Positions 35,273 through 41,810 of a DNA stretch of 51,794 nucleotides are shown in pieces. Under the pieces are notes generated by a model, which had not been told where the DNA came from, ran no database searches, and saw nothing but the letters and a program-made list of their open reading frames with translations. How positions within the stretch are numbered: the first letter of the stretch is position 1; every line of letters starts with the position of its first letter. The stretch covers positions 1-51,794 of the forward strand of contig JAFGQT010000056.1 in the NCBI GenBank assembly GCA_016935515.1, given 5' to 3'. Source of the stretch: Bacilli bacterium (GTDB lineage: Bacteria > Bacillota_I > Bacilli_A > Izemoplasmatales > Hujiaoplasmataceae). The position numbers and the translations under genes are program-made.

Positions 35273-36865
35273 TCATGAGTCATTATTATTTTCATTTTTG
35301 GCATCATTGCCATCTCTTAGTGCGATTTCAAAGAAGAACTCAACTCCGCCGTCAGCGTTTCTAACGCCATATCCATGTCCGAGATTGATCAAGGTTGTTC
35401 GGGCGATACTCAATCCCAATCCTTGTCCGCCATAACTCCTTGTTCTAGCCTTATCGACTTTAAAGAAACTCTCCCAGACGCGATCAATATCAGATTCTGC
35501 TATATGTTTGCCTGAATTGTAGACAGATACACGCAACATCTTCTCTGATGTAAATTCCGAGATAACGCGTATTTTGGCCCTTTTATCAATATGATGTATT
35601 GCGTTCGCAATGAAGTTGCTCAATACTGTTTGAAGGGCATCATAGTCTGAAGTAATTTGAATATCCTCTATATCGACCTCTGGGACTATTCCCGCCTCCG
35701 CAAACATTATCGAGAACAACCTGATTGTTTCTTCAACCAAGTCCTTGATTGAAAAATCCGTCATCTGAAGTTCCACAAAGCCGCTCTCAAGTTGGGAAAT
35801 CTTCAGAAGTTCCATAACAAGTTTGTTCATCTTGTTCGATTCATCCATGATGATGTTCAAATACTCATCGATAGTTTCAGTATTCAATCCCGGAAGTTTC
35901 AAGGCTTCTGAATAGCCCATGATCAAGGAAATAGGTGTTTTAAGTTCATGAGATGCATTGGCGATGAATTCCTTTCGCATCTCATCAATCTTTGTTTTCA
36001 ACTCAATGTCAGCCGCAAGTTTCTCATTAGCCTTCTGAAGATCCTTGATTGCATTCTCGAGTTGTGAGCTCATCAAGTTTATGCTTCGTCCCAAGTCGCC
36101 GATTTCATCGTTTGAAGTAATCTGCACCTTGTGTGTAAAATCAAGATTGGAGATGTCTTGAGCGACCTGATTGATTTGCAGGATCGGATTGGTGAAGCGA
36201 TAACTGATCAAATACATGAATCCACCTGCCATGATCATGAAGACAAAACCGATTATGATCGTGAAAGTATTGAACACGCTGATGCTGTCGCGTATCGACT
36301 GAAAGGTAACACTTAAAATGTAATACAGATGCAAATCGTCAGATTGTTCTTGAGAAACACAAAGCGTAAGCATTTGGATGTTTTCACTCAACATTGGTTG
36401 GGAAGCCGATTCCAGGTTGCCGAGATACGCAACGTATTCTTCCCCTACTTCGACTGACTCAACTAGGTTGCTACCGGTTCCATCGACTTGGTCCTCGAAC
36501 TCAGACATTATCCTCCCAATCATTCCGTCATGCATCGACATCTGGTTTCCATAGATGCGATAATACGGCACAGGAAGACTGTCAAGCGCGTCATCATCGA
36601 AGATGTTCTCAGGAGGTTCAACCTCCTTCAAAATGTGCACATTGATGTTGTAGTTCTCTTCAACGTCATAGATTTGGCTAGCGAGATCATAATCATCCAA
36701 GTCGATTGACTGAATTTCTGAGAATGCGCTTATCAACGAGTTTTCACGATGGTTGATATAATAGCGCTCGAGATAAGTGTTGTTGAGGATAATGAGACCA
36801 AGAATGAATGCGAGAATCAGTCCGTAGGTTATAAGGAATAACCTACTTCTTATCGATGTTCTCAT
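35273..36865 (-). CDS. Membrane sensor histidine kinase (HAMP-HisKA-HATPase_c)
   Basis: Two TM segments flanking an extracytoplasmic domain; FIANASHELKTPISLIMGYSEAL H-box; FIANAIHHI N-box; GGQGLGLSIAR G-box. Confidence 0.95.
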   Translation of the reverse strand: MRTSIRSRLFLITYGLILAFILGLIILNNTYLERYYINHRENSLISAFSEIQSIDLDDYDLASQIYDVEENYNINVHILKEVEPPENIFDDDALDSLPVPYYRIYGNQMSMHDGMIGRIMSEFEDQVDGTGSNLVESVEVGEEYVAYLGNLESASQPMLSENIQMLTLCVSQEQSDDLHLYYILSVTFQSIRDSISVFNTFTIIIGFVFMIMAGGFMYLISYRFTNPILQINQVAQDISNLDFTHKVQITSNDEIGDLGRSINLMSSQLENAIKDLQKANEKLAADIELKTKIDEMRKEFIANASHELKTPISLIMGYSEALKLPGLNTETIDEYLNIIMDESNKMNKLVMELLKISQLESGFVELQMTDFSIKDLVEETIRLFSIMFAEAGIVPEVDIEDIQITSDYDALQTVLSNFIANAIHHIDKRAKIRVISEFTSEKMLRVSVYNSGKHIAESDIDRVWESFFKVDKARTRSYGGQGLGLSIARTTLINLGHGYGVRNADGGVEFFFEIALRDGNDAKNENNNDS

Positions 36866-37538
36866 TTTCGATGTCCAATCGGTAGCCGATGCTTCTTACC
36901 GTGGAGATGTAATATGAATATTTATCTAGTTTTGCCCGAAGTTGTTTGATATGGGTGTCTACGGTGCGAAGATCACCAAAATAATCATAGTTCCAAACCG
37001 CATTCAGGATCTTGTCTCGGGATAATGCAATGCCTTTATTATCGATGAAATACTTTAGCAACTCGAATTCTTTCGGAGTCAGATCGGTTTTAGTGTCATT
37101 GATGAATACTTCTCTTGCCGCAAGCGACATGTGAATGACACCAAAGTTGACTTCTGCGGCTTCGGTTTTTTCTTTTTTGAGTATATTGTTTATCCGCGCC
37201 ATTAGAACACTTGGGGAGAATGGTTTTGTTACGTAATCGTCAGCTCCCAGTTTGAATCCTTTTAACTGGTCGCTTTCATCAGCTCTTGCCGTAAGCATTA
37301 TTACAGGGACTGTTGAAAACTCTCTGATTCTTTCTAAGACAAACCATCCGTCATACTTGGGCATCATGACGTCAAGAATTACGAGATCGATTTTGTTTTT
37401 TGACTCAAAAAGGATATCGATTGCTTGTTCACCATCAATGGCTTCCAAGGTCTTGTATCCTTCCCTTTGCAGGAATTCGGCCAGTAACTTACGAATCCTG
37501 AATTCATCATCCGCAACTAATACATACAAATTTTTCAT
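36843..37538 (-). CDS. OmpR/PhoB-family response regulator
   Basis: LYVLVADDEFRIRKLLAEFL, LVILDVMMPKYDGW, VIMLTARADESDQLKGFKLGADDYVTKPFSPSVLMARI, winged-helix C-terminus. Start MKNLYVLV at 37538 rather than the track's 37589. Confidence 0.95.
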   Translation of the reverse strand: MKNLYVLVADDEFRIRKLLAEFLQREGYKTLEAIDGEQAIDILFESKNKIDLVILDVMMPKYDGWFVLERIREFSTVPVIMLTARADESDQLKGFKLGADDYVTKPFSPSVLMARINNILKKEKTEAAEVNFGVIHMSLAAREVFINDTKTDLTPKEFELLKYFIDNKGIALSRDKILNAVWNYDYFGDLRTVDTHIKQLRAKLDKYSYYISTVRSIGYRLDIENENIDKK

Positions 37539-37604
37539 ATAAACATCACACTCCCCTTGAAAATAAAAGACTTGAGACAAGCCTTTCAATTTGATATATA
37601 TCCA

Positions 37605-37650
37605 TAGCCGAAGCTAGTAGCGTGTGGGTGGTGTGGGTTTCCCCACACCG
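37605..37650 (-). ncRNA. Putative structured 5' leader RNA element upstream of the response regulator (family not recognised)
   Basis: Minus strand has GGTGTGGG-GAAA-CCCACACC (GNRA tetraloop hairpin, 37649-37630), a second CCCACAC at 37628-37622, and TAGC-UUCG-GCTA (UUCG tetraloop, 37616-37605). Confidence 0.5.
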
Positions 37651-37776
37651 GGATGGAAAACTCAAAAATAAGATACTATTATTCATAGGGGGAGAAGTTT
37701 TAACAGCCTATTTCTGGGTTCTACAACTCAATTATATTCCCCTATTATGATGAAATTGTGAAAATCCGGAAAAAAA

Positions 37777-40045: not shown

Positions 40046-40909
40046 CTAATAGACGATGATTCCCGCAATAAAGGCAATGACACCCAATACCAAAGTGTAG
40101 CCAGCAAAGTAAACCAGCTTTCCTTGCTTAAACAATCTAAACACATATTTCAGCGCGATTTTAGTCGCTATGATACTTGCGCTAAAAGCAATGAAATAAT
40201 AGACGTATTGATAGATGTTTGTGGCGTCGAATCCTAAGGCTTCCGATCCAGGAGCTTGGATCCAACGACAAACAAACAAAAACATCGAAGCCAGCGAAAG
40301 TGGCAAATACAACATGAAAGAAAATGTCAAAGCTGTATCCATTGAAGCCTTGCGTGACAATCCGGAAGCGGTTGTTATGCCGCTTCTCGACAGTCCTGGC
40401 AATATGGAAAACGGCTGTAACAAGCCGATTACTAAGGCGTCTTTGTATGTGAGTTTTTGGGCTGTATTCTTGTTTGCTCCGTTCCTGACGATATAAAGAA
40501 AAGTCGAAGTAACCAGCAAACCGAAACCTACGATAATCAAAGCGTATTGCTGGTACAGTATCTCAATTTGGCTTGACAACATCAGTCCAAAAATTGCCGT
40601 TGGGAGCGTTGCGATAATGATCTTTAGCGTATAAGAAAAATCCTCTCTAGTTAGAAATCGCGATTCCTTGATGAAGACGAATTGAAAAAAGCCGGAAATC
40701 AACCGCTTGATGAATCTGCGAAAATGCCAAACGATTGCGATCAATGATCCAAGATTGACCAAAGCCAAAAACAAAAGCCCCTCATCAGCTTTGATTCTTA
40801 AAAGCTCTTGAAATATAGCAACGTGACCACTTGATGAAACGGGCAAGACTTCTGTAAACCCCTGAATCACTCCGAGAAAAAAATACTTTAGCAGTTCCAA
40901 CCAATCCAC
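40046..40909 (-). CDS. uppP: Undecaprenyl-diphosphate phosphatase (BacA/UppP), copy 1
   Basis: FLGVIQGFTEVLPVSSSGHVAIFQELL and LPGLSRSGITTASGLSRKASMDTALTFSFMLYLPLSL. Confidence 0.95.
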   Translation of the reverse strand: MDWLELLKYFFLGVIQGFTEVLPVSSSGHVAIFQELLRIKADEGLLFLALVNLGSLIAIVWHFRRFIKRLISGFFQFVFIKESRFLTREDFSYTLKIIIATLPTAIFGLMLSSQIEILYQQYALIIVGFGLLVTSTFLYIVRNGANKNTAQKLTYKDALVIGLLQPFSILPGLSRSGITTASGLSRKASMDTALTFSFMLYLPLSLASMFLFVCRWIQAPGSEALGFDATNIYQYVYYFIAFSASIIATKIALKYVFRLFKQGKLVYFAGYTLVLGVIAFIAGIIVY

Positions 40910-40955
40910 ATGCTTCGCCTCCTGTCATTTGGAAACAAATACACATCAGGATTTT

Positions 40956-41810
40956 CTAGTTCTTCATTATAAATATTATTATTGAGGCAACGCCTGCCAA
41001 CAAGCAATAATAACCGAAGTATTTTAATTTCCCCGTCTTGAAAGCATTGAAAACTACTAGGAATGCAAAGTATGTTGCGATGATCGCCCCTGCACCTGCA
41101 ATAGCATAATATATGTAATAAGCGCTTGATGGGACGGATATTCCTTCCTGTGCAATGTCGACTATAATCATCAATAGCGATCCCAAAGACACTGGAATGT
41201 ACATCAAAAAGGAAAAATCGAGCGCGGAGTCGATACTGTGTCCGCGCTTAAGTGCAGTGGACGTCGTCATTCCGGAACGAGACACTCCGGGAACCAACGC
41301 TACGGCTTGAGCGAGCCCCATGAATATTGCGTCCATCCAACTGACCAACGTATTTCCTTTACGCAACTTGGTTATCGCAAGAATAAGCAGAATTGTTCCA
41401 GTGAAAACAAGGCCAACTCCCGAAAGCAAAACGTTATATTCAATCATTATCCTGTCGATATGTGAACTGAATATTATCCCAACTATACCTGCAGGAATAC
41501 TTGCTACTCCAAGTTTTAGCACGTAATAAAATCCGGATTTGCTTTCATTTCTGGCTTCAGGAACGAAGACAAATAGAAAAAAATCTTTTATCAACTGCGC
41601 CAGTTTATGTCGGTAGACAAATACAAATGTTATCAGCGAGCCGGTATTGACCAAAATCAGGAACAAAAGTCCTTCGTCGATCTCTAACCCCACAACTTCT
41701 TTAAAAAATTCCACATGTCCACTTGAGGAAATCGGAAGCACTTCGGTAATCCCCTGGACAATCCCCAAAAACAGGTATTTCAAAGCTTCGAGCACGTTCA
41801 TTGGTTCCAC
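40956..41810 (-). CDS. uppP: Undecaprenyl-diphosphate phosphatase (BacA/UppP), copy 2
   Basis: FLGIVQGITEVLPISSSGHVEFFKEVV and VPGVSRSGMTTSTALKRGHSIDSALDFSFLMYIPVSL. Confidence 0.95.
   Translation of the reverse strand: MEPMNVLEALKYLFLGIVQGITEVLPISSSGHVEFFKEVVGLEIDEGLLFLILVNTGSLITFVFVYRHKLAQLIKDFFLFVFVPEARNESKSGFYYVLKLGVASIPAGIVGIIFSSHIDRIMIEYNVLLSGVGLVFTGTILLILAITKLRKGNTLVSWMDAIFMGLAQAVALVPGVSRSGMTTSTALKRGHSIDSALDFSFLMYIPVSLGSLLMIIVDIAQEGISVPSSAYYIYYAIAGAGAIIATYFAFLVVFNAFKTGKLKYFGYYCLLAGVASIIIFIMKN

Follow-up and report, generated by a model that had tools for sequence, protein, structure and literature searches.

A Conserved Structured RNA Leader Precedes the Response Regulator

The 245-nt gap that separates the CpsB stop (37784) from the response-regulator ATG (37538) on the minus strand almost certainly holds a real, conserved structured RNA. 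This leader represents an RNA family with strong covariation from a little-studied bacterial lineage, and the family is previously uncatalogued within the scope of Rfam 15 and confined to one bacterial family. The window, by which we mean the whole stretch of 51,794 nucleotides of DNA that was analyzed, belongs to a genome of 1.4 Mb (G000). Its gene order is response regulator, histidine kinase and then a CapD-like epimerase in a capsule cluster, and in the genomes read the upstream neighbor of the regulator is either the CpsB capsule phosphatase or a Wze-like kinase. Two similar undecaprenyl-diphosphatase genes (UppP/BacA-like, by eye) also lie side by side at 40046–41810 on the minus strand, beside the capsule genes. 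The features of the locus are as follows, with type-1 and type-2 denoting the long and short forms of the leader.

35273–36865, minus strand: histidine kinase (HAMP, HisKA, HATPase_c; Pfam), overlapping the response regulator
36843–37538, minus strand: OmpR-type response regulator (Response_reg + Trans_reg_C; Pfam)
37544–37558, minus strand: Shine-Dalgarno (SD) region AAGGGGAGUGUGAUG of the response regulator; the version in genus g11 is AAAGGUGAUG
37560–37568, minus strand: U tract, UUUU(A/C)UUUU, immediately before the SD and kept in both leader types
37566–37586, minus strand: P4, hairpin AAAGGCUUG-UCU-CAAGUCUUU, weak terminator-like or processing hairpin; arm permutation p of about 0.002
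37605–37616, minus strand: P3, UUCG hairpin TAGC-TTCG-GCTA; not consistently present in homologues
37630–37649, minus strand: P2, hairpin GGTGTGGG-GAAA-CCCACACC, already in the initial annotation; the stem covaries and the loop is not conserved
37657–37722, minus strand: P1, 5'-terminal hairpin around a C-rich loop; folds in 15/15 type-1 homologues
37685–37698, minus strand: apical loop ACUUCUCCCCCUAU of P1, near-invariant in alignments and anti-SD-like
37731–37736, minus strand: −10 box TATAAT; the P1 5' arm starts about 6–12 nt downstream in every type-1 homologue
37746–37761, minus strand: TCACAATTTCATCATA box of the promoter, standing where a −35 hexamer would be expected; conserved in family genomes

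The leader (37724–37559, minus strand) folds with −46.3 kcal/mol, compared with −30.4 ± 3.8 in dinucleotide shuffles (z = −4.2, 0/200), and the fold of the plus strand of the same region is no better than its shuffles (z = +0.3). Rfam 15 gave no match in the window at the covariance-model gathering threshold, no credible one at a permissive E of up to 10, and none in 15 homologous loci. Across the homologues the helices carry the compensatory changes that characterize a structured, covarying RNA leader. The initial annotation had proposed that a leader of about 185 nt is a structured RNA of no assigned class, a proposal that would fall with an Rfam hit or with homologues that do not covary. 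Its letters and coordinates are all correct on the minus strand, its choice of strand is right, and since the homologous leaders do covary (in the arm permutations of P1 and P2 and in the paired changes of P1 given below) and Rfam is without a match, the proposal stands. The strongest feature of the leader, the 5'-terminal hairpin at 37722–37657 with its C-rich loop at 37698–37685, was absent from that annotation.

Distribution and Promoter

To find homologues, the leader was used as a DNA query and the response regulator as a protein query. The orthologous regulator is present in 30 of the 34 genomes of the window's GTDB family, and leader orthologues always precede this same OmpR-type response regulator. 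The type-1 leader occurs in 15 genomes (genera g1–g4, g7, g8 and g10) and the type-2 leader in nine (g6 and g9), the latter being P1 with its C-rich loop and the U tract directly after, which resembles a minimal C-loop hairpin. The C-loop hairpin is lost in G023. In five g11 genomes the regulator is preceded by a short hairpin that lacks the C-rich loop, and no promoter is recognizable; these g11 loci (L138–L142) still have the stem AAUUCAAUAU/AUAUUGAAUU. A P1 covariance model, run at E up to 0.05 on 395 genomes of the class, found matches in 8, all from this GTDB family, with one match per genome and each a leader of this regulator. A search of the family at E up to 1 returned two further weak matches elsewhere (G022 and G018, E of 0.17–0.38), which are probably due to chance. 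Reading by eye revealed no leader before the closest 15 outside regulators (at most 56% identity; all or nearly all Lachnospiraceae/Clostridia).

The promoter as a whole, TCACAatttcnnCATA, has 25 nt from the first T of TCACA to the start of TATAAT in about 20 family genomes, and this spacing is shorter by one base in two genomes. A similar promoter stands before the orthologue in the outgroup family f2, without the leader, and the TCACAATTTCATCATA box recurs in f2 and, in part, in Lachnospiraceae orthologues. Because the element is family-restricted and single-copy, and outgroup orthologues have the promoter without the leader, the leader looks like a family-level innovation placed between the regulator gene and a promoter that is older. 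Judging from the sequence, transcription would start at about 37724 ± 3, just before P1, and the response regulator probably binds the TCACAATTTCATCATA box, which would amount to autoregulation.

P1 Presents a Near-Invariant C-Rich Loop

When the homologues were folded singly with the C run constrained to be unpaired, P1 formed in 15/15 type-1 leaders, and in unconstrained folds the C run was also unpaired in nearly all homologues. The arms of P1 pair with their own partners at a summed energy of −170.9 kcal/mol, compared with −106.8 ± 10.2 when arms are permuted among homologues (0/100,000 permutations). A hand alignment, in which the left arm was anchored on the promoter, the right arm was placed by the fold and bulges were dropped, so that it leans towards structure, has both-side changes in 10 of 12 P1 pairs and pairing in 84.9% of its cells, as against 70.4% when shuffled and at most 61% with the partner slid by one column. 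The C run of the loop is retained in type-1 and type-2 leaders alike. It is clear that a conserved C-rich motif is held unpaired in a hairpin loop here, as it is in RNAIII/RsaE/LhrC-like RNAs.

In P2, too, each arm prefers its own partner (−263.3 vs. −123.3 ± 16.8 on arm permutation; 0/100,000). It is present in all 15 type-1 homologues with differing sequence, and its loop may be GAAA, UUCG, GUAA or 5–8 nt long, which does not support the tetraloops as a signature of the element. It had also been suggested that two copies of CCCACAC (37637–37631 and 37628–37622, minus strand) allow mutually exclusive hairpins. Apart from the window, a second copy of comparable kind occurs only in G002, where it is imperfect, and a hairpin using copy 2 would have a 13-nt loop rather than a tetraloop; as the duplication is not conserved, we reject this switch. 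A search of the homologous leaders for a conserved alternative pairing or antiterminator found none.

P4 is present in about 12 of the 15 type-1 leaders; in G015, G019 and G017 it is missing or weak. A simple consensus scan made no terminator call for P4, whose stem is AU-rich and whose U tract is interrupted. Further downstream, a 3-codon frame (AUG-UUU-AUA-UGA, 37546–37535, minus strand) overlaps the start of the response regulator through AUGA, an arrangement common to nearly all family genomes. We considered a function for this mini-ORF, AUGnnnnnAUGA, which nearly all family genomes share, and rejected it in favor of an extended SD, GUGAU(G), at fixed spacing, which is the better explanation; the GUGAU probably extends the SD of the regulator, with the 3-codon frame a chance by-product.

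A Possible Anti-SD Function in Trans

The P1 loop carries a motif complementary to a G-rich SD. In most homologues the loop does not match the SD of the response regulator itself in this way, which suggests from sequence comparison that the pairing partner of the loop is probably in trans. Self-sequestration of the regulator SD by CUCCCC was accordingly discarded: it is possible in the window (GGGGAG), but the GAAGGAUG or AAGAAAGUG SDs of most homologues cannot pair. A gene start on the opposite strand was discarded as well, since the motif is an SD complement and yet the plus strand keeps no start codon at the right distance.

Exact copies of UUCUCCCCCUAU outside this leader number four across the family. 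Three of these, from three genomes, run antisense to start regions of the AUAGGGGGAGAA..AUG type, and the copy in a fourth genome lies inside a coding sequence. No perfect 12-nt complement was found elsewhere in type-1 genomes with the exact motif. Start regions with TAGGGGGA show no excess in loop-bearing relative to loop-less genomes, which argues against a broad set of targets, and the idea of a general co-evolution between the loop and such start regions was dropped for the same reason.

The best target candidate suggested by these comparisons is khpB (jag/eloR). Its SD contains GGGGG in 14/22 loop-bearing genomes and in 0/13 without the loop, a comparison that is based on partial genomes, in which khpB was chosen post hoc, and whose association is confounded by phylogeny. 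By group (loci L240–L268) the counts are 12/15 for type-1, 2/7 for type-2, 0/4 for g11 and 0/9 for outgroups, and G003, G004 and G009 are among the genomes whose khpB SD does not have the run. The base rate of GGGGG SDs is 2–3.5% of genes in the larger gene sets (0/112 in the window), and concordance for GGGGG in other type-1 ortholog pairs is 1/274. In 14 of 20 genomes the pairing energy between a genome's own loop and its khpB SD falls within the best 5% of a gene background, which was pooled from relatives in many genomes. In pneumococcus, KhpB/EloR binds RNA and controls the elongation of the cell (PMC6403258), a role that would fit an envelope-sensing system.

A Model for the Leader and Its Alternatives

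The explanation we favor, though only tentatively when taken as a whole, is that of an autoregulated envelope two-component operon whose leader acts as an anti-SD, 5'-UTR-derived small RNA. The regulator would activate its own promoter, with transcription beginning just before P1. P1 presents the near-invariant C-rich loop unpaired, and after it come the strong P2, the weak P4 with the U tract, and the regulator SD. The loop would serve as an anti-Shine-Dalgarno "finger" that pairs in trans with G-rich SDs. Where the leader is ended or cut at P4 and the U tract, a 5'-UTR-derived small RNA would result, and read-through would give the regulator-kinase mRNA, such that the small RNA is made whenever the regulator turns on its own promoter. 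A more specific and decidedly speculative version has the leader also serving as a small RNA, C-rich and anti-SD, that represses khpB, by which autoactivation of the regulator would lower an RNA-binding regulator of cell-wall elongation; as it stands, we regard this version as improbable.

It is also conceivable, if somewhat doubtful, that the leader is itself the target, with the C-rich loop docking a trans regulator (a protein, or an sRNA whose seed is G-rich) and thereby switching attenuation at P4 or translation of the regulator and kinase. Such a cis-regulatory role would agree with an element that is single-copy and always found before this regulator, and with the contiguity of P4, the U tract and the SD, but no conserved cis alternative pairing ties the loop to P4 or the SD, and no G-rich partner RNA has been identified.

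Protection of an mRNA from decay by a 5' stem-loop is known for some Bacillus mRNAs, and the leader might be a passive stabilizer in which the 5'-terminal stem-loop and strong hairpins shield the message from 5' decay. P1 does begin at the predicted first nucleotides, and its stem is free to vary in sequence with pairing kept. Such a role leaves unexplained both the near-invariance of the C-rich loop and its retention in the two leader types, and we consider it unlikely.

In favor of a small-molecule riboswitch, the leader is structured and P4, ahead of the SD, resembles a terminator. However, Rfam is without a match, a conserved junction or multi-helix core is absent, P2 and P3 are freely variable, and type-2 leaders are one simple hairpin. 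The riboswitch-like reading that the initial annotation left open is not borne out, as what is conserved is mainly a single C-rich apical loop instead of a multi-helix aptamer core, and a riboswitch is very unlikely. Equally hard to credit is a role at the DNA level, in which the C-rich stretch, a short near-invariant sequence close to a conserved promoter, would be an operator for a transcription factor early in the transcribed region and the hairpins would be incidental. Against this, the stretch occupies, in every type-1 homologue, the apical loop of an RNA stem that covaries, and the folding signal is strand-specific.

Comparison with Known Systems

Several known systems bear comparison with the leader. 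Like the orphan leader motifs of comparative-genomics surveys (PMC2864571, PMC8040213), it has covariation upstream of one gene family. Unlike them, it is limited to one bacterial family and lies before a two-component system in a capsule cluster, its novelty being judged against Rfam 15. As in 5'-UTR-derived sRNAs, the leader would be freed to act in trans, such release being a proposal in the present case.

The C-rich loops of RNAIII bind SDs (PMC2837412), and RNAIII/RsaE-type RNAs of Staphylococcus aureus resemble the leader in having a C-rich loop, UCCC, that is unpaired and can pair with SDs by its sequence (PMC2837412). They differ from it in being independent RNAs of other architecture, the leader here having no Rfam match. 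A parallel in regulatory setting is given by the LhrC sRNAs of Listeria, which are driven by the envelope-stress system LisRK and whose CUCCC loops act on an SD (PMC4132741); on the anti-SD model the likeness would consist in envelope-stress two-component control and in CU-rich CUCCC hairpin-loop motifs that pair with the SD (PMC4132741). LhrC RNAs come from free-standing multicopy sRNA genes, whereas here the element is a single-copy 5' leader of the regulator's own mRNA, and no sequence relationship of the leader to LhrC was found. LhrC and the C-rich loops of RNAIII are the nearest functional analogues, and the leader would work as they do if the pairing model holds, a likeness that does not extend to family membership by the sequence tests made. 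Should that model be true, the mRNA of an envelope-sensing system would itself contain a C-rich regulatory loop of the kind otherwise familiar from free-standing Staphylococcus and Listeria sRNAs, and khpB would be a testable target.
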